A stretch of DNA of 40,633 nt, taken from positions 1 to 40,633 of the forward strand of contig JAFGMM010000412.1 of NCBI GenBank assembly GCA_016927535.1, read 5' to 3'. This document shows positions 3,312-12,872 of the stretch, piece after piece. A model generated the notes under the pieces. That model was given only the letters and a program-made list of their open reading frames with translations. It was not told the origin of the DNA and did not search any database. Made by a program: the position numbers and the translations under genes. Each line of letters starts with the position of its first letter. The first letter of the stretch is position 1. The stretch comes from Anaerolineae bacterium (lineage in GTDB: Bacteria; Chloroflexota; Anaerolineae; Aggregatilineales; JAFGMM01).

Positions 3312-3563
3312 CGCCGCCGATTCCCCCCTCCAGCCTAGAAGACTCCCATAGAGCCGCCTTTTCTACGCAACGGCTCGATTGTATAACCGCACGAAGGTTC
3401 ATGCCACCTTTTGCCTTTGCAAGTAAAGCCGACTTACATTTGTGTGAAGTTAGAACATTGCAAACACTAAAAATAAGCTACCTCCGCCCACTTGCGCGAT
3501 ATGCAGCTTTAAGCCAAAATGTGTCTTGGTTATAGATATGTAGTGGAAGGAAAGGCGATATCA

Positions 3564-3962
3564 GTGGGCGACTCTTTACCGACATCTCCTCGGATTCTTG
3601 TAATTGACGACGACAATGAGTTGTTAAAGCTGGTTACGATGCTCCTCAATAGGATCGGTGCGCAAACCCTTCAGGCGAAAAACGGGGTGCGCGGGTTAGA
3701 AATCTTGATGGACGCGACCGCGCCCATCGACTTGATTATCCTTGACCTGATGCTGCCCGACATTGATGGCTTTGAACTGCTGCGACGCATCCGCGAGCAG
3801 GCGCGTTTTGATACAGTTCCTATTATCATTTTATCGGCCAGGGCCGATCCCGACAGCGTCCGTTACGGACTTGACCACGGCGCCGATGGTTATATCACCA
3901 AGCCATACATCGCCAATAACCTGATCGACCGGATAAAAGAATTGATCTCGGCGCGCCAATGA
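3564..3962 (+). CDS. Stand-alone response regulator (CheY/PilG-like), first gene of chemosensory operon
   Basis: A single receiver domain of 132 residues. The acidic pocket is LVIDDD (Asp 15-17), the phosphoacceptor is Asp 61 in LIILDLMLPDIDGFE, and the conserved lysine is in YITKPY, so it looks fully phosphorylatable. There is no output domain. Start choice: an in-frame ATG exists at 3519, but GTG 3564 follows AAGGAAAGG at 3547-3555 with an 8-base gap and gives a normal receiver length, so I prefer it. It precedes cheW by about 50 bases and is probably phosphorylated by the CheA encoded downstream. Its partner (motor, pilus or other switch) is not visible. Confidence 0.88.
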   Translation: MGDSLPTSPRILVIDDDNELLKLVTMLLNRIGAQTLQAKNGVRGLEILMDATAPIDLIILDLMLPDIDGFELLRRIREQARFDTVPIIILSARADPDSVRYGLDHGADGYITKPYIANNLIDRIKELISARQ

Positions 3963-4013
3963 CGCTCTTACTAGTCAACGTCATTATATTTATATATTCT
4001 AAAGTTGGGCGAT

Positions 4014-4661
4014 ATGAAACCCAAAAGTAATCCATTATACCAATATACCAATGATAACCCTAAAAAGGTGACATGGGCTGAGGCGCGCGAGATGCTTCGC
4101 TACATCGTCAGCGATTGGCGCCCCCGCGACCCTACCGAGGAGGAAACCCAAGAGATTCTTTACAAGCGCGCGCGCACCCTCGCCAGGCCCGCCGAAGGCA
4201 GCGATGCGCTGAACAACACCCAGCGCGTGCTCGTCTTTACCCTGGGTACCGAGCGCTACGCCGTGCCGGTGGTCTACGTGCAGCGCATCAAACCGTTTGA
4301 CCAGATGACGCCGATCCCTTGCACGCCCAGCTTCTACCTGGGCGCTGCCAACGTGCGCGGCAAAATTCTCTCGGTGCTGGAACTGCGCTACCTGTTCGAT
4401 ATCCCGATTGAGGACGAAAGTGCCCTCACCCTGAAACACCTGGTCGTCATCAGCGCCGCCGGGCTGGAAGTCAGTCTGCTTGTCCACGACATCGCCGGCG
4501 TGACGGATTTGATGCTATCCGATTTAAAGACGCCTTCGGAGGCGCTGGTGGGCATCAGTCCCGACTACATCGCCGGCACGACCGCCGAGGGCATCATCCT
4601 GCTCGACGTGGAGATCCTGCTCTCCGACTCGCGGTTAATTGTGGACGAGGAAGTTATTTAA
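4014..4661 (+). CDS. cheW: CheW-like coupling protein
   Basis: 215 residues from ATG 4014; a TTG at 4005 is also in frame. The first ~70 residues are a charged leader not found in short CheW proteins. A CheW (SH3-like) domain follows, from QRVLVFTLGTERYAVPV through a central YLGAANVRGKILSVLELR block (the hallmark NxRGxxxPVxDLR region) to a C-terminal ISPDYIAGTTAEGIILLDV segment. CheW links chemoreceptors to CheA in membrane arrays. The two receptor genes and cheA follow directly. The N-terminal extension is the only unusual aspect; a related extension occurs in PilI/FrzA-type relatives, but I cannot assign a role to it. Confidence 0.9.
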   Translation: MKPKSNPLYQYTNDNPKKVTWAEAREMLRYIVSDWRPRDPTEEETQEILYKRARTLARPAEGSDALNNTQRVLVFTLGTERYAVPVVYVQRIKPFDQMTPIPCTPSFYLGAANVRGKILSVLELRYLFDIPIEDESALTLKHLVVISAAGLEVSLLVHDIAGVTDLMLSDLKTPSEALVGISPDYIAGTTAEGIILLDVEILLSDSRLIVDEEVI

Positions 4662-4678
4662 GTGGTGAGTGACAAGTG

Positions 4679-6142
4679 ATGAGCGATGAGCTGCATGCTT
4701 CTTCAGACAATATTGTCCTCCGGCGCCTGGGAGCCTTGAGCTTGGGCGCGGCAGCGCTGGGCGTCGTGAGCCTACCGGCCGCTCTGTCCAGCGCCGAAGC
4801 GAGCTTCGCCAGCGCGCTGTTCGCCACCGCCGGGATCATCTTCGGCGGCGCGGCATGGTTGCTGGCACCCCGACGCCCGGCATGGGCCAGAGCACTCCTC
4901 GTGTTCGGCCTGGGCGTCGTCCTGGCGGTCGCGGCCCTGGCAACGACGGCGCAGCCGGCCGCATGGGTGGGCGTGATCTACGCGCTGGGGATGCTCTCGC
5001 CGGCTGCGGTGATCCTGTGGGACCGGGCAAGACTATGGCAGTGGTTGGCCGGCGAGCTTGCCGTCTGGGGTTTGACCGTCCTGCTGAGCCAGGGGGCGCT
5101 GCCCCTGCCGGCGGTGACCCTGGCGCTGGTCGGTCTGCTGGCGGCGAACGGCCTCACCGGGCTGCTCGCCGGCGCGCCGGCGCTTAGACAAGTAGAACCG
5201 GTCCGCGCCGCCGGCGCGCCGGCGGCGCGGACCGACCATGACAAGCCGCTGGCCGAGCAGGTCAGGCAGGCGGTCAAAGAGCTAAACCGCGCCGCCGGGA
5301 CCATCCAAAATGTGATGATGGAGCAGTATTCCGAAGCCGACCGGCAAAGCGGCGTCTTGACGAACGTCATGCAAACGCTGGACACTTTCCAGCAGTCGGT
5401 AGTCCAGATCGGCCGGCTTTCTCAAAACATGACGACCGTCTCCGAAGACGCGGTCGAGCGCGCGAACAACGGGCGCGAGATCGCCGCAGGTGCCATCCTA
5501 ACCCTGGAGCACATCCGCTCGCAGGTCAAGTCGGTAGCGCTCAACCTGGCGACTCTGGCGCGCCACATCGAAAATATCAGCGAAATCATCTCGTCGTTGA
5601 GCGACCTGGCGACGCAATCAAACTTCCTGGCGCTGAACGCCTCCATCGAGGCGGCGCGCGCCGGGCAGCACGGGCGCGGGTTCGCGGTGGTCGCCGACCA
5701 GATTCGAGACCTGGCGCAGCAGTCCGCCGCCTCCGCCGAGCAGGTGCGCACGATCTTGACCGAGATTCGTCAAGCCGTCCACCAGACCGCCATCGCAACC
5801 GACGCCGGCGCGGACGGCGTTGATACCGGCGTGGCGCGCGTCACCGATACCGCGCAGGCAGTAGGGCACATTTCGCGTCACGTGATGGACTCGACGTCTA
5901 AAGCGCAGCAAATCGGCAATATGTTAGAAGCGCAGGCCGCCGATCTTTACGAAGTCAACGCGGCGGTCAAGTCGATCAACGAGATGCAGATGCAGTATCT
6001 CGCCAACACGCGCATGGCCGAGGCCATCGCCGAGAACCTGCTTAAACTCGCGCAGCGATTGGAGCAAGCCGTCACAGAAACGGACGACGAGAAACCGGAT
6101 TCCCAACCGGATTTAGAACTCCGCCAGGAGGTACAGTCATGA
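4679..6142 (+). CDS. Methyl-accepting chemotaxis protein with polytopic N-terminus
   Basis: 487 residues from ATG 4679, two codon steps after a weaker in-frame GTG at 4676. About six hydrophobic segments fill residues 17-170, joined by very short loops, with no room for a periplasmic ligand-binding domain. A cytoplasmic coiled coil follows, ending in a clear MCP signalling tip: [20 protein letters not shown], then [20 protein letters not shown]. That tip binds CheW and CheA. Methylation helices flank it, so CheB in the same operon is a plausible partner. The stop overlaps the next receptor gene by ATGA, implying coupled translation. A sensor confined to the membrane suggests detection of a membrane-linked state (redox, lipid, proton motive force or a partner protein), which is inference. 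Confidence 0.93.
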
Positions 6143-7455
6143 CAAAGAACAGCACAAAGATGCAATCCGATGACATCCGAGCATCGTTGTCGGGCTGGAT
6201 GGCGCTGACCGGGCTGGCGGCCACCATCGTTATTTTTCTGGCCGCCCTGCTTGGCATCCAGATGAATAACGATTGGTGGCTCAGCCAACCCGACCGGACC
6301 CGCACGCCCCAACTGGGCGAAGCCCTGGGCGGTTGGCTGGGATTCTTACTGCTGGTCGTGCTGGTGACCGCGGTCGTGGTGGTGATACTGGCGCGGACAA
6401 TCGCCCGGCGGCAAAGCACGGTACTCCGCGCCTCCCAGGAGCGCCTGGAGACGGCGGTGGCGCAGTACACCGCCTACCTGCTTCAGGTAGGCGAGGGCGA
6501 CCTAACCGCCCATCTCGACCTGGACGGCTACACCGACCTGGCCGACCCGCTGGTGCGCTTGGGGCGCGGCCTTAAGGAAACCGTGTCGAGTTTGCAGACG
6601 ATGGCGCTGCAACTGCGGCAGGAGGTCGTCAACGTCAGCGAGGCGGCCACCGAGATTTTGAACGCTACCAACGAGCAGATCATCGCCGCCACCGAACAGG
6701 ACTCATCGGTAACCCAGACCGCCGCCACCGTCAACGAGGTGCGCGCCACCGTCACCGAGACCGCCGAGCGCTCGCAGGCGGTGGCCGAGACCGCGCGCCG
6801 CACCGTAGACGTGACCCGCACCGGCGAGCAGGCGGTATCCGACAGCATCAACGGCATGCACCTGATCCGCCAGCGCGTGGAGAGCATCGCCGACACGATT
6901 CTGATCTTGTCGGAGCACACCCAGCAAATCGGCGAGATCATCGCCACGGTCAACGCCATCGCCGACCAGAGCAACATGCTGGCGCTCAACGCCTCGGTGG
7001 AGGCGGCGCGTGCCGGCGAGGAGGGCAAGGGCTTCGCGGTCGTGGCGATGGAGGTGCGCAGCCTGGCCGCGCAGAGCCGCCAAGCGGTCTCGCAGATCCG
7101 CGATATCCTCAGCGAAATCCAGCAAACGACCAACACGGCGGTGATGGTCACCGAGCAGGGCACCAAAGGCGTGGATAGCGGGATGGAACTGGTAGACCGC
7201 GCCGGCGAGACCATCCGCGAGTTGGCCGCCGCCATCGAAGAGGCCTCGCACGCCGCCACCCAGATCGCCGCGAGCACGCGCCAGCAGACCGTCGGCATGG
7301 ACCAGCTCTCCGAAGCCATGCAAACCATCCGCGATATGACCGCTACCAATCTCTCTAGCACCATGCGGGTCGAGCGCGCCGCCCGCGAGTTGAACCAGAT
7401 CTCGCGCCGCATGGGTCAGACCGTCTCTAAGTACCAGGCCGCACGCGAAACTTGA
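6139..7455 (+). CDS. Methyl-accepting chemotaxis protein, two-TM type with minimal external loop
   Basis: 438 residues, starting at ATG 6139 behind CAGGAGG and overlapping the previous gene by four bases. Two transmembrane helices (about 16-38 and 62-88) enclose only ~25 extracytoplasmic residues. A HAMP-like linker follows, and the signalling domain has the conserved hairpin [20 protein letters not shown] and [20 protein letters not shown]. The overall plan resembles PilJ-type or cyanobacterial phototaxis-type receptors without a large sensory domain. With the preceding receptor it would form arrays with CheW and CheA. No ligand can be predicted. The chain ends without a CheR/CheB-tethering pentapeptide. 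Confidence 0.94.
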
Positions 7456-7487
7456 AAACCTAGGAGTGGTTTGGGTGTAGAAAAAGT

Positions 7488-9917
7488 ATGAGCGATGTAA
7501 ACTCGGAATTATTGGCGCTGTTTCAAGAAGAAGCGAACGAATACCTGGACGCCTTGACGAGCGGCCTGCTCGACCTGGAGGTCAGCGACGGCGACGACGC
7601 GCGCGGCGGTCTGCTGCGCGAGATTTCACGGGTGGCGCACAGCCTCAAAGGCGCTGCGCGCACGGTCAACATGCGCGGCATCGAAAAGGTCGCCCACCAC
7701 ATGGAGACGGTTTTCGACGCCAACATGCAGGGCAGCCTTACCATTTCGGCGGAGGTCGCCGACGTCTTGTACGACGGGCTGGATGTGATCCGGGCTTTGA
7801 TGGATGGTGTATCAGACGACGAGATACAGGATCAGATCATTTCAGTCGTGACGCGGCTGGAGCACATCGGCTCGCCGGAACCGCCCACGCAAACGCCTGC
7901 GTCGCCGGCCCCCGCCCAGACCGGCGCCCAACCGGAGGCCGGCATCCCGGAAGCAGTGGAACGGCCCTCGGTCGGCGAGTTGATCGGCGAGCCGGTCAGG
8001 CTGCTGCCCATCGGCCCCAGTCCGCTCGACACGAAGCCGCTCGATCCCAAAGTGGTCGAAGACGAAGCAGATAGCGGGCCGCGAGTCCGGCGGCGCGGCG
8101 TTCTCGACCAGCACTTCGAGACGGCGACCATCCGCGTCGCCATTACCAAGCTCGACGCGCTGATGGCCCAGGCCGGCGAACTGCTGGTCTCGAATATCAG
8201 CCTGCAACAGCGCCTCGCCGAACTGCGCGACCTGAGCGAAGAACATGCCCGGTGGCGCAAAGCATGGCGCAAAGCGCGCCCCGCCTTCACCCGGCTCAAA
8301 CGCAACCAGGAATTGAAGGACGCGCATACTGGCCCTGGCGGCGAGCATTTGCAGCATGACGAGGACCTGAACAGCCTGCTTAGCTTCTTCGATATGACCC
8401 AGCGCTACGCCCGCGAGATGGCGGCGCACCTGGCGACGCTGGACCAGGCCATGAACCAGGATCACATGCAGCTCAGCATGGTCGCCGGCGACCTGCAAGA
8501 CGGCGTGCGGCGGGTGCGCATGCTGCCCTTTGAAACGATCCTGGGCGGCTTCCAGCGCATGGTGCGCGACCTGTCGCGCCAACACAATAAAGAGATCATC
8601 TTCAATGTCATCGGCGAACAGGTCGAGCTTGACAAGCGCGTGCTGGAGGCCATCAAAAGCCCGATCATGCACCTGCTGCGCAATGCGGTCGATCACGGCC
8701 TGGAAGCGCCGGAGGAGCGCCAGGCATCCGGCAAGGACCCGGCGGGCTACCTGACTCTGATGGTAGCGCAGAAGGGCGCCGAGATTATGGTCACGGTCGG
8801 TGACGACGGGCGCGGCATCGCCCCGGAGCGGGTGAAGCGCGCAGCGGTGCGTTCGGGCCGGCTCGGCCCAAACGACGCCGACCTGATGGATGACCAGGAG
8901 GCGATAAACCTGATCTTTTTGCCCGGTCTTTCGACGAAAGAGGAAGTCACTACGACCTCCGGTCGCGGCATCGGGATGGATGTGGTGCGGCAGAACGTCG
9001 AAGGGCTGCGCGGTCACGTGACCGTGCAAAGCCGGCGCGGGCTGGGCACCGCAATCCAGTTGGTGGTGCCGGTGTCGCTGACCACCATGCACTGCATGCT
9101 GACCCGCGTCGGCAGGGAGATCTACGCCATCCCGGTCTATTCGATTGAGCGCATCGTCGAGATCACGCCGGAGGAATGCCATACGGTGAAGGGCCGGCAG
9201 GTCATCAAGCTGGAAAACCGCCCGGTGACCCTGGTCCGCCTGACCGATGTCCTGGAGCGCCCGCGCCTGGACGACGCGGAGAAAAAACCGGATGAAATGC
9301 AGTTGGCGCTGATCCTGCGCTCCGGCGACAAAATGGCCGCCTTCGTCGTCGATGAACTGCTCGCCGAATTGGAGTTGGTCGTCAAGAACCTGGGCCACGA
9401 GATGGCGCGTGTGCGCAATGTGGCCGGGGTCACGCTGCTGGGCACCGGGCAGGTCGTCGTCATTTTGAACCCCAGCGATTTGCTCAAGTCGGCGCAGGCG
9501 GCCACGCGCCGTCATGTCGTGCCGGTCGGCGATCTGACCGAGCAGGTTGGGCCGAAGGCGTGCATCCTGGTCGTGGACGATTCGATCACCACGCGCACCC
9601 TGGAAAAGAACATCCTGGAGGCCGCCGGCTACCAAGTAATAACGGCCACCGATGGTCAGGAGGCCCTTGAGTTAGTGACGCATTCTGCCTGTGACCTTAT
9701 AATAAGCGATATAGAAATGCCTCGAATGGATGGGCTGGTGCTGACGGAAACGATCAAAAGTGATGAAAAACTCAAACACTTGCCGCTAGTTTTGGTAACT
9801 TCGCGCGAAGCGCCCGCCGACCGTGACCGCGGAATGCAAGCCGGCGCCGATGCGTACATCGTCAAAGGCGATTTCGACCAGGACGAATTGCTGGAAACAA
9901 TCGGGCAGTTGCTTTAG
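7488..9917 (+). CDS. cheA: Hybrid chemotaxis histidine kinase CheA with C-terminal receiver domain
   Basis: 809 residues. Order of domains: Hpt (about 1-125) with phosphorylatable His 51 in RVAHSLKGAA; a Pro-rich linker with no recognisable P2 domain; a long P3 dimerisation helix pair (about 210-335) carrying a basic insertion; the ATPase domain with N box HLLRNAVDHGLE (Asn 399), G1 GDDGRGI and G2 SGRGIGMDVV; a CheW-like P5 domain (about 530-675); and a receiver (about 690-809) with VVDDS, phosphoacceptor Asp 741 in SDIEMPRMDG, and Lys 793. All key kinase residues are present. A fused receiver is typical of FrzE/ChpA-like and 'alternative cellular function' chemosensory kinases rather than flagellar CheA, and often acts as a phosphate sink. 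Start ATG 7488 has no close Shine-Dalgarno, only TAGGAG ~22 bases upstream. Confidence 0.96.
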   Translation: MSDVNSELLALFQEEANEYLDALTSGLLDLEVSDGDDARGGLLREISRVAHSLKGAARTVNMRGIEKVAHHMETVFDANMQGSLTISAEVADVLYDGLDVIRALMDGVSDDEIQDQIISVVTRLEHIGSPEPPTQTPASPAPAQTGAQPEAGIPEAVERPSVGELIGEPVRLLPIGPSPLDTKPLDPKVVEDEADSGPRVRRRGVLDQHFETATIRVAITKLDALMAQAGELLVSNISLQQRLAELRDLSEEHARWRKAWRKARPAFTRLKRNQELKDAHTGPGGEHLQHDEDLNSLLSFFDMTQRYAREMAAHLATLDQAMNQDHMQLSMVAGDLQDGVRRVRMLPFETILGGFQRMVRDLSRQHNKEIIFNVIGEQVELDKRVLEAIKSPIMHLLRNAVDHGLEAPEERQASGKDPAGYLTLMVAQKGAEIMVTVGDDGRGIAPERVKRAAVRSGRLGPNDADLMDDQEAINLIFLPGLSTKEEVTTTSGRGIGMDVVRQNVEGLRGHVTVQSRRGLGTAIQLVVPVSLTTMHCMLTRVGREIYAIPVYSIERIVEITPEECHTVKGRQVIKLENRPVTLVRLTDVLERPRLDDAEKKPDEMQLALILRSGDKMAAFVVDELLAELELVVKNLGHEMARVRNVAGVTLLGTGQVVVILNPSDLLKSAQAATRRHVVPVGDLTEQVGPKACILVVDDSITTRTLEKNILEAAGYQVITATDGQEALELVTHSACDLIISDIEMPRMDGLVLTETIKSDEKLKHLPLVLVTSREAPADRDRGMQAGADAYIVKGDFDQDELLETIGQLL

Positions 9918-9964
9918 TCGGCGCGGGACAGGGTTGATTTTTATAACCGGGTCAGGTAGCAAAG

Positions 9965-11098
9965 GTGAACGATTCAAACAAGATTGGGGTGTTAATCGTC
10001 GAAGATAGCCTGGTCACGCGCCGTTTCTTGGCGGACTTGATCGACGGCGAGCCGGATATGCATGTAATCGGGGAGGCCGGCGACGGGGCCGAGGCGCTGC
10101 ACCTGCTGAACGGCCTGAAACCGGACGTGATATCGATGGATATCAGCATGCCGGCGATGGACGGCCTCGAAGCGACGCGCCGGATTATGGCCGAACACCC
10201 GACGCCGATTGTGGTGGTGAGCGCCACGCTGCAAAAGAAAGACGTTGACCTGGCCTTCGAAGCGCTCCAGGCGGGCGCGCTGGCCGCCGTGGAGAAGCCG
10301 CCCGGCTCGGCGCACCCCGACTTTGAGGCCAAGCGCGGCGAGATGATTACCACCATCCGCCTGATGGCAAAGGTCCGGGTGGTGCGCCGTCGTCCATCAG
10401 GGATCATCCGCGTCGCGCGGCCTGGCGGCGCCCCGCCGGCGCCGCCGCGCCCGGCCCCGCTTGCACTCCCGGTTGACCGGGAGCCGCGCTCCCAACCGGC
10501 GGCGGTCGCGCAGTTGCCGCCCGGCGCGAAACCGCTCAAGCGCCCGCAGGTGGCGGCGCTGGGCGCCAGCGCGGGCGGGCCGGCCGCGTTGGTCCAGGTG
10601 TTGAGCGGTCTACCCAAGGATTTCCCGATCCCGGTCCTGGTGGTCCAACACCTGGCGCACGACTTTCTGCCCGGCCTGGCGCGCTGGCTCGACCAGTCGA
10701 GCCAGCTAGAAGTACGCCTGGCGGAGGAAGGCGACCGGCTGCGCGCCGGCGTCGTCTACTTGGCGCCGGGGCATGCCCACATGACGGTTGACATGAGCCG
10801 CCGGGTGCATATGGTGCACACGCGCGGCGCGCACCGCCACCAGCCGTCTGCTACCGTGCTGTTCGAATCGGTCGCCAGGGTCTATGGGGAAGCGGCTATC
10901 GGTGTTATCCTTACGGGTATGGGAGATGACGGCGCGGCAGGGCTGCGCGCCATGTGCGACGCCGGCGCGCCCACGCTGGTACAAGACGAGCAAAGCTGTG
11001 TTGTTTTTGGGATGCCGGCCGCCGCCATCGCCTGCGGCGCGGCTCGATACATCGTCCCATTGGAGAGCCTGGCAGCGGCGATTCAGGAATTGTTGTAA
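9965..11098 (+). CDS. cheB: Chemotaxis protein-glutamate methylesterase CheB
   Basis: 377 residues from GTG 9965. An N-terminal receiver (1-~125) has VEDS and phosphoacceptor Asp 59 in SMDISMPAMDG. A Pro/Ala/Arg-rich linker (about 140-193) leads to the methylesterase domain. The catalytic triad is visible: Ser 202 in GASAGGP, His 229 in VVQHL, and Asp in LTGMGDDGAAG. CheB removes methyl groups from receptor glutamates (and deamidates glutamines) when phosphorylated by CheA, giving adaptation. No cheR methyltransferase occurs in the operon or anywhere in the window, so its counterpart must be encoded elsewhere, or CheB works only as a deamidase. The linker is longer than usual. Confidence 0.96.
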   Translation: MNDSNKIGVLIVEDSLVTRRFLADLIDGEPDMHVIGEAGDGAEALHLLNGLKPDVISMDISMPAMDGLEATRRIMAEHPTPIVVVSATLQKKDVDLAFEALQAGALAAVEKPPGSAHPDFEAKRGEMITTIRLMAKVRVVRRRPSGIIRVARPGGAPPAPPRPAPLALPVDREPRSQPAAVAQLPPGAKPLKRPQVAALGASAGGPAALVQVLSGLPKDFPIPVLVVQHLAHDFLPGLARWLDQSSQLEVRLAEEGDRLRAGVVYLAPGHAHMTVDMSRRVHMVHTRGAHRHQPSATVLFESVARVYGEAAIGVILTGMGDDGAAGLRAMCDAGAPTLVQDEQSCVVFGMPAAAIACGAARYIVPLESLAAAIQELL

Positions 11099-11115
11099 AA
11101 TAGAGCAAGAGAAGT

Positions 11116-11131
11116 GTTAGAAAATTCTAAC
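11116..11131. promoter_or_regulatory. 16-bp perfect palindrome between cheB and second cheY-like gene
   Basis: GTTAGAAAATTCTAAC is perfectly symmetric (7-bp arms around AA). It sits in the only AT-rich gap inside the chemosensory operon, 40 bases before the next ATG, followed by GGTATAGTATAGAGAGGG. This could be an operator with an internal promoter, or an RNA hairpin that adjusts expression of the last three genes. No regulator can be named. Confidence 0.4.
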
Positions 11132-11171
11132 GCGAGTAAGGGTTAGGATAGGTATAGTATAGAGAGGGAAT

Positions 11172-11543
11172 ATGGCAACTGCGGTTCTACTTGTAGAAGA
11201 CAGCAAGACGCAGGCCTACCAGATCAAAGAGACGCTGGAAGGTGTCGGGCTGAAAGTCTCCATCGCCCACGACGGCCCGGAGGGCATCCGCGCCGCCATC
11301 AGCGAGCCTCCGGGGCTGGTCGTGCTCGATGTGAAGCTGCCCACGATGGACGGGTTCCAGGTGTGCCGGCGGCTGAAAATGCACCCGGCGACGCGAAATA
11401 TTCCGATCATCATGCTGACGGAGAAGACCAGCGCGGAGGCGACGATGACCGGCCTGAGCGCCGGCGCGGATGATTACATCCCGAAAGATATTTTCGCAAC
11501 CGAACATCTAATCACTTCATTACAAGAACTGGGAGTACTGTGA
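11172..11543 (+). CDS. Second stand-alone response regulator (CheY/PilH-like)
   Basis: 123 residues, a single receiver domain. It carries LLVEDS at the N-terminus, phosphoacceptor Asp 53 in VVLDVKLPTMDG, and Lys ~105 in DDYIPKD. The start ATG 11172 follows AGAGAGGGAA. The C-terminal signature (GADDYIPKDxFxxEHL) matches the receiver fused to CheA in this operon more closely than the first-gene regulator, which suggests a distinct role such as phosphate sink or antagonist, as with PilG/PilH pairs. That division of labour is inferred. It is preceded by a palindrome at 11116-11131 and followed within 22 bases by the GHKL-like gene. Confidence 0.92.
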   Translation: MATAVLLVEDSKTQAYQIKETLEGVGLKVSIAHDGPEGIRAAISEPPGLVVLDVKLPTMDGFQVCRRLKMHPATRNIPIIMLTEKTSAEATMTGLSAGADDYIPKDIFATEHLITSLQELGVL

Positions 11544-11565
11544 CGTATCTGCCGGGAGGCGCACT

Positions 11566-11967
11566 ATGACACGGGTGAACATACCGCCTGTGATGTCGGT
11601 CACCATCGAGGACAGCATGGACATTATGATCGCGCGCGATACCGCGCGCCGCGCGGCGGGGCTGCTGGGCTTCAACACCTCATGCAAGGCCCAGCTCGCC
11701 GCCGCCGTAGCCGCCCTGACCGAGCAGATGCTTAAGGCCGGCGGCGAAGGCAGCCTTCACCTCAACGGGGTGCAGAGCGGCTCGCGCCTGGGCATCCAAA
11801 TATCCTGCGAGGCCGGCTGGCTCAAGAACCTGCCGCCCAACTCGGCGGATGCGCTGCAAGAACAGTTAAATACGATGGTAGATAAGGTTGAGATTGTAGA
11901 ACAAGACCCGCCTCATATGAATTTAATTTTTTGGCTGTCGGGACCTCGACAGATTAAGGAAGGATAA
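11566..11967 (+). CDS. Degenerate RsbT-like (GHKL/HATPase_c fold) protein lacking ATP-binding residues
   Basis: 133 residues, ATG 11566 after CGGGAGG. The chain follows the order of RsbT/RsbW-type anti-sigma regulatory kinases: a short strand (VTIEDSMDIMIARDTARR), a helix (AAGLLGFNTSCKAQLAAAV), the N-box helix, then a strand (LGIQISCEAGWL) and a final strand ending LIFWLSG. However, the N-box reads AALTEQML where RsbT has ELARN, so the Mg-coordinating Asn is missing, and the G1 box DxGPGI is replaced by CEAGWL. No glycine-rich G2 loop is visible. It therefore keeps the fold but should not bind ATP in the usual way. It may be a scaffold or a partner-switching dead-kinase. The family placement is by eye and the fold is an inference. 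Two bases separate it from the next gene. Confidence 0.7.
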   Translation: MTRVNIPPVMSVTIEDSMDIMIARDTARRAAGLLGFNTSCKAQLAAAVAALTEQMLKAGGEGSLHLNGVQSGSRLGIQISCEAGWLKNLPPNSADALQEQLNTMVDKVEIVEQDPPHMNLIFWLSGPRQIKEG

Positions 11968-11969
11968 GC

Positions 11970-12872
11970 GTGACCGAGGAAAAGGATCGCATCCTATTAG
12001 TCGGACAGGATGAAGAGTTGCGCCGCACCGTGTCCGAGGTATTGGAAGGCACGGGGCGCTATTTGACGGTTGAAGCCTCCACCTTTGAGGATGCTCTGAG
12101 CGAAATTTTAATGGATAGTTTCTCGCTGGTGGTCACCGAGACCGAACTGCCCGACTTAAGCGGGATGGACTTGCTCGCCGTGGTCAGCGGGCTGCGGGCC
12201 GGCACCCCGGTCATGCTGATCGACGACGACCTCTCGGCGAAATCGGCGGTCGCCTCGATTCGCCTGGGCGCTTGCGATTATTTGTACAAACCGATCAACC
12301 TGGAGTTCCTGGTCATGCAAATCGAGCGCCAGATTGATTTATACCACCACAGCAAATCCGCGCCGCTCCCGGAAGAAGCGAAATCGACGCCCAAGGCGCC
12401 CCGTGACCGCGAGAAGCGCCTGAACCGCGCGACGCGCGGCGCGGCGCTGGTGTTGGGGCGCGAGCAGTTCAAGGCCGTCAACCAGGAGCTTGCCCGCCTG
12501 CTGGGACATATCCGGGCGCACTTCGTGGGATTGATCGACGCCGACGGCAACCTGGTCGGCGCGGCGGGCACGCTGGACCGCTACGACCTGGTATTGCTGA
12601 CACAGGCGCTCTCGATCGACCCCGGCGCGACCAGCACCCTGGCAAGCATTTTACACGAAGAAAAGTTCCATTCCACCTATCTAGAGGGCGACCAGAGCGG
12701 CGTTTACATCATCGAGATTCGAGAACCCTACCTGCTGTCGCTGGCCGTGATCTGCCCGACCGATGTCAAGGCGGGGATGGTGTGGCTCTACAGCAAGCGC
12801 ACCGCCGAGAACATCGCGCGGGTGCTGCAAACCAATCCCAAGCGCGCGCTCAGCAGCCGCCTCAACGATTAA
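11970..12872 (+). CDS. Pseudo-receiver domain fused to Roadblock/LC7-like domain
   Basis: 300 residues from GTG 11970, with AAGGAAGGA directly upstream. Residues 1-125 align with a receiver, but the functional positions are changed: the acidic pair is Gly 12/Gln 13, the phosphoacceptor is Glu 57 (VVTETELPDLSG), the switch Thr is Asp 85, and only Lys 107 (YLYKP) remains. A basic linker (about 128-160) follows. Residues ~165-285 look like a Roadblock/LC7 domain: a helix, then VGLIDADGNLVGAAG, a second helix, EEKFHSTYLEGDQSGVYIIE strands and a final helix after GMVWLYSK. Roadblock proteins such as MglB regulate Ras-like GTPases. This last gene of the operon is a good candidate for its output component. 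No GTPase gene is visible here. Confidence 0.78.
   Translation: MTEEKDRILLVGQDEELRRTVSEVLEGTGRYLTVEASTFEDALSEILMDSFSLVVTETELPDLSGMDLLAVVSGLRAGTPVMLIDDDLSAKSAVASIRLGACDYLYKPINLEFLVMQIERQIDLYHHSKSAPLPEEAKSTPKAPRDREKRLNRATRGAALVLGREQFKAVNQELARLLGHIRAHFVGLIDADGNLVGAAGTLDRYDLVLLTQALSIDPGATSTLASILHEEKFHSTYLEGDQSGVYIIEIREPYLLSLAVICPTDVKAGMVWLYSKRTAENIARVLQTNPKRALSSRLND

Follow-up and report, generated by a model that had tools for sequence, protein, structure and literature searches.

A degenerate receiver fused to an MglB-type Roadblock domain at the end of a chemosensory operon in Chloroflexota

The last gene of the che operon in the window (the whole stretch of 40,633 nucleotides that was analysed) encodes a receiver–Roadblock fusion protein of 300 amino acid residues, in which the receiver lacks its phosphorylatable aspartate and the C-terminal half is of the MglB type. 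The fusion was confirmed as a real protein of this architecture, and a chance resemblance was ruled out by the profile matches to MglB together with the conservation of two replaced receiver positions among the unique relatives (E57 in 46 of 49, D85 in all 49). We favour, with modest confidence and from sequence evidence, the reading that it would serve the chemosensory array as a dimeric Roadblock adaptor working without phosphorylation, and would not be an MglA GAP. The open reading frame (11970-12872, + strand) begins with a GTG codon, and the sequence AAGGA is located about 8 nt 5' of this start. The features are listed below, with the evidence for each in brackets.

3519..3962, + strand: single-domain canonical receiver, first gene of the operon (Pfam, receiver alignment)
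4005..4661, + strand: CheW (Pfam)
4676..6142, + strand: MCP signalling protein 1 (Pfam)
6139..7455, + strand: MCP signalling protein 2 (Pfam)
7488..9917, + strand: CheA hybrid kinase with a canonical C-terminal receiver (Pfam, receiver alignment)
9965..11098, + strand: CheB methylesterase with a canonical receiver (Pfam, receiver alignment)
11172..11543, + strand: CheY-like single receiver with a canonical active site (Pfam, receiver alignment)
11566..11967, + strand: conserved neighbour of 133 aa, RsbW/SpoIIAB-like GHKL fold without recognisable ATP motifs (AF2, Foldseek)
11970..12872, + strand: pseudo-receiver/MglB-type Roadblock fusion protein, 300 aa (ORF, Pfam, MglB profile, receiver alignment, NCBIfam)
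11988..12341, + strand: pseudo-receiver domain, residues 7-124, with G12, Q13, E57, D85, D86 and K107 (Pfam 3.6e-12, operon-receiver alignment, family counts)
12342..12443, + strand: variable linker, residues 125-158 (column entropy, low pLDDT)
12444..12836, + strand: MglB-type Roadblock/LC7 domain, residues 159-289, with invariant C262 and W272 (MglB PDB profile, NCBIfam, Foldseek)

The position of the fusion at the end of a che operon, as given in the original prediction, holds, and the operon was found to be conserved among relatives, where the usual order is CheW – MCP – CheA – CheB – CheY – 133-aa protein – CheW2 – fusion. CheW2, a divergent second CheW (for example at 7835-8302 of locus L072), is the gene immediately upstream of the fusion in 25 of 33 loci, and the two genes often overlap by 4 nt; CheW2 is missing from the window and from its nearest relative (L001). 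The operon of the window (3519-12872) contains CheB and two MCP-type proteins and no cheR, and two CheR genes are located on other contigs. The fusion is carried by 54 of the 154 genomes of the order-level group (E ≤ 1e-25) and was found in 2 of 301 genomes of a phylum-wide sample (E ≤ 1e-30). Thirteen fusion loci were taken from genome contigs, and conservation was counted over 49 unique sequences, 43 of them core; genome-wide statements rest on searches of the genomes. Several T2SSE/pilus-type ATPases are also present in the genome of the window.

The receiver fold of the N-terminal half is supported by a Pfam Response_reg match to residues 8-118 (E = 3.6e-12) and by the AlphaFold model of the fusion (mean pLDDT 67, less confident at residues 131-159 and 216-233), which matched known receivers with a TMt of about 0.9. 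An alignment of the receiver with the four others in the operon showed each predicted substitution to be correct: the Mg-binding acidic pair is replaced by G12 and Q13, the phosphosite by E57 and the switch Thr/Ser by D85, with D86 next to it, while the lysine is kept as K107. The four other receivers (CheY at 11172, CheB at 9965, the C-terminus of CheA and the receiver at 3519) keep every canonical active-site residue. As K107 is the only canonical residue retained, the domain is not a canonical phosphorylatable receiver; with a receiver fold and no phospho-Asp, it belongs to the pseudo-receivers, or aspartate-less receivers (ALRs).

The pseudo-receiver is a fixed feature of over two dozen genera. 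Glu occupies position 57 in all 43 core sequences, which together with the invariant D85 indicates an old, selected pseudo-receiver; all 49 unique sequences have Lys or Arg at position 107. Position 13, Gln in the window, is occupied in 42 core sequences and is K/R in 34 of them. The mean column entropy was 0.87 bits for the receiver, 1.02 for the Roadblock domain and 2.56 for the linker (taken over residues 124-149). The two domains are thus about equally conserved and the linker varies, which argues for selection on the receiver and against its decay; a pseudogene or a decaying receiver was ruled out by this conservation and by the fixed new residues. The reading in which the receiver half is a relic without a role, and the Roadblock domain alone matters, is accordingly very improbable, even though receivers degenerate often and the receiver of one distant fusion (L098) is fully degenerate.

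The original prediction pointed out that Glu at the phosphosite can mimic the active state, and a constitutive state of the pseudo-receiver is plausible as judged from its residues. In CheY, D13K and D57E are each constitutively activating, whereas the EpsW substitutions D13K and D58E failed to activate, so phosphomimetics are not always activating (PMC4671073). The word 'constitutive' is open to doubt because the Thr that a phosphomimetic Glu would normally engage is itself Asp in the fusion.

The C-terminal half had been predicted to be a Roadblock/LC7 domain at about residues 165-285; HMM searches and structure prediction upheld the fold, identified it as MglB-type and extended the domain slightly, to about residues 159-289, although the Pfam Robl_LC7 model itself matched residues 180-256 below threshold (E = 0.0018; 18.4 bits, the cut-off being 23). 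The NCBIfam MglB (Thermus) model matched the single fusion sequence at residues 159-288 with an E-value of 5e-9. When a profile built from 14 C-terminal domains of the family was compared with PDB chains, MglB of M. xanthus (2e-16) and of T. thermophilus (2e-6) were found, and Foldseek matched the fusion model to M. xanthus MglB (6hjm) with a TMt of 0.74. By sequence and by fold, the domain therefore belongs to the Roadblock/LC7 superfamily, and its likeness to MglB, the Roadblock/LC7 GAP of the Ras-like switch MglA in Myxococcus and Thermus, extends over nearly the whole Roadblock fold (about 130 residues).

The fusion differs from MglB in the attached receiver, in the usual absence of canonical MglA and in features of the Roadblock domain. 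According to the clade alignment, the MglA-facing AG motif of alpha-2 (MglB positions 60-61) is not conserved but replaced mostly by S/N and I/V, giving a SIDH-type sequence; the equivalent of MglB R115 is an invariant Trp (W272), and that of K120 is Arg. The C-terminal helix extension of MglB is missing. A Trp at the R115 place was present in all aligned REC-fused domains of the phylum, as against Lys/Arg in stand-alone MglB. The two-helix (alpha-2) side of MglB is where MglA binds in M. xanthus, and K14, R115 and K120 on the opposite side bind MglC (PMC10329633). No point mutants of MglB alpha-2 (A64, G68) were found in the MglA/MglB papers searched, so the published binding of MglA to the two-helix side is the sole basis of the alpha-2 argument.

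The original prediction further proposed that the fusion links array signalling to a small GTPase. In the corresponding reading, the Glu would hold the receiver locked in its active form, and an MglA-family GTPase, with the Roadblock half as its GAP or effector adaptor, would deliver the array output; we regard this reading as possible but rather doubtful. It is favoured by the truly MglB-type character of the C-terminal domain, by distant REC-MglB fusions that adjoin mglA and mglB, and by the GTPases of the window's genome, which carries one canonical MglA, an orphan on another contig (C234), as well as two further MglA-superfamily GTPases (C23, locus L058; C420, locus L059), in which GTPGQ replaces DxxGQ in G3. 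Against it, the che operon of the window encodes no GTPase, as judged by the Pfam scan, and the alpha-2 AG motif and the C-terminal extension are lost. Canonical MglA was found in 4 of the 154 order genomes; two of these are among the 54 carriers and two among the 100 non-carriers. This pattern of co-occurrence rules canonical MglA out as an obligate or general partner. For MglA the proposed link is thus weak, and a GAP function of the fusion towards canonical MglA is improbable.

The GTPase on C23 adjoins a DUF4388/PATAN gene. All 54 carriers have a PATAN-linked GTPase, as do 57 of the 100 non-carriers, a difference that was significant per genome and not per genus (p = 0.12). At least two PATAN-linked paralogues were counted in 23 of 28 carrier genera versus 13 of 33 non-carrier genera (p = 0.0015; counted by hand and uncorrected for kinship). 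The presence in every carrier and the paralogue count speak for the GTPase reading, and the result per genus speaks against it. If the fusion contacts any GTPase, this PATAN-linked member of the MglA superfamily is the likelier partner and the best candidate. With the family profile, no other MglB-type domain was found in the window's genome; two ordinary Robl_LC7 proteins are present. The same bacterial genome also contains a Rab/Rup-like small GTPase with a DIAGQDRFG motif on contig C151 (L119/L020).

The 133-aa gene directly before the fusion had no Pfam or NCBIfam family match, and a PDB profile search returned nothing usable. Its AF2 model (pLDDT 90) was matched by Foldseek to RsbW (6m36_A, TMt 0.82) and also to SpoIIAB, which places it in the GHKL fold of these anti-sigma kinases. 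Unlike them, it has no sequence match, sits in a che operon and shows no recognisable N-box Glu/Asn or DxGxG ATP motif in its alignment, which was read by eye with the register inferred. This combination of fold and missing motifs gives it the look of a pseudo-kinase, and it is, on the strength of the model, probably a second disarmed signalling fold in the operon (pseudo-RsbW). The gene adjoins the fusion in the window and is kept near it in most che-linked loci, a conservation that would suit a receiver switched by non-phosphorylative means, through binding of pseudo-RsbW or CheW2, a ligand or redox at Cys262, in a partner switch of two disarmed folds. C262 is invariant (49 of 49 unique sequences), and the acquired acidic residues E57 and D85 are conserved beyond what a mere loss of function requires. 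The operon proteins that were scanned included no STAS or RsbV-like antagonist, however, and we consider such a switch unlikely.

In the adaptor reading, which we prefer, the Roadblock half would dimerise as MglB does, and the receiver would be frozen by a metal-free charge network of E57, D85 and D86 with K107, joined in most relatives by K/R13. The frozen receiver may dock constitutively on the array or on an output partner via its conserved alpha4-beta5 face, while the free face of the Roadblock dimer, which bears the invariant Trp, would recruit an output protein. Regulation would then come from binding partners (CheW2 and the pseudo-RsbW neighbour) instead of phosphate, and in its action the fusion would resemble MglC, a Roadblock adaptor with no GAP activity (PMC10329633), more than MglB. 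This reading draws on the change of every catalytic receiver position but the Lys while the operon's other four receivers are intact, on the conserved operon with CheW2 directly upstream in most loci, and on the prevalence of K/R13, given that D13K and D57E are each constitutive in CheY; its denial of an MglA GAP draws on the rarity of MglA among carriers, the lost AG motif and the Trp in place of the MglC-binding Arg. The mediocre model of the fusion, the failed EpsW phosphomimetics, the distant fusions near mglA/mglB and the genome's own orphan MglA were counted against it. As a tentative extension, which we hold to be less than probable, the pseudo-receiver with its MglA-independent Roadblock dimer and pseudo-RsbW could form an order-specific output module that conveys the array state by protein binding alone, with no phosphotransfer to the output adaptor and no MglA.

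Response_reg-MglB fusions were noted in passing in 2015 by Wuichet and Søgaard-Andersen for five sequences (PMC4316618). By their description they resemble the present protein, with the same domain order and an MglB similarity in a C-terminal region missing the Pfam model, and the portions of that paper available to us do not mention phosphosite loss, che operons or this order. Aspartate-less receivers, in which the Asp is absent as in the fusion, are likewise described, with Glu as the commonest replacement (PMC12632262, PMC4395418); the fusion differs from other ALRs in that the acidic pair, the Asp and the Thr are all replaced, with the Glu and the Thr-to-Asp change fixed, and in its MglB output within a che operon. 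In the Frz system of Myxococcus with its RomR/MglC/MglB polarity module, a single pathway likewise includes a chemosensory array together with proteins that bear receivers and proteins of the Roadblock type, but there these two kinds of protein are not fused, and MglA is present. In the related literature, so far as its text was available, no fixed pseudo-receiver of this kind, che operon, Trp signature, MglA absence or pseudo-RsbW neighbour was found. REC-MglB fusions and Glu pseudo-receivers are thus already known; what appears to be new is their fixed combination in a che operon, with the Trp signature and pseudo-RsbW and without MglA. The mechanism of bacterial pseudo-receivers is openly called a mystery (PMC12632262), and the operon offers a fixed pseudo-receiver for which the intact sister receivers serve as controls. 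It also shows that MglB-type Roadblock domains exist without MglA inside chemosensory operons.

A search of 400 Chloroflexota genomes with the C-terminal profile revealed REC-MglB fusions in other groups of the phylum. A normal phosphorylatable Asp in homologues would have told against the original prediction; none was found among the 43 core orthologues, and a complete canonical receiver was seen only in two distant fusions (L085, L088). The divergent paralogues L064 and L065 carry Asp at the phosphosite and L067 carries Thr, all three without the acidic pair; L064 and L065 nest inside the Glu clade in the tree, on long branches to be read with caution, and were rejected as phosphorylatable orthologues. 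In the f60/f63 group (L084, L089 and L094-L100 except L096 and L098), Pro-Gly stands at the acidic pair and Asp or Asn at the phosphosite. These differing receivers indicate that receiver loss went to different extents among lineages, the Glu/Asp/Asp configuration belonging to the che-linked clade, and the relatives with a normal receiver provide a ready evolutionary before-and-after comparison. The deep placement of the Chloroflexia-like fusions in the tree is unreliable owing to long branches. Around L085 (L110) and L098 (L115), real mglA and further mglB/Roadblock genes occur in the neighbourhood, which suggests an ancestral tie to the MglA GTPase. L110 and L115 correspond to genomes G192 and G094, and in L110 the canonical-receiver fusion lies beside another REC-Roadblock-like gene. 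In another branch of the phylum (L109, L112, L113 and L116), a REC-MglB fusion follows a REC protein of 525-556 aa in a conserved block near the ATP synthase genes.
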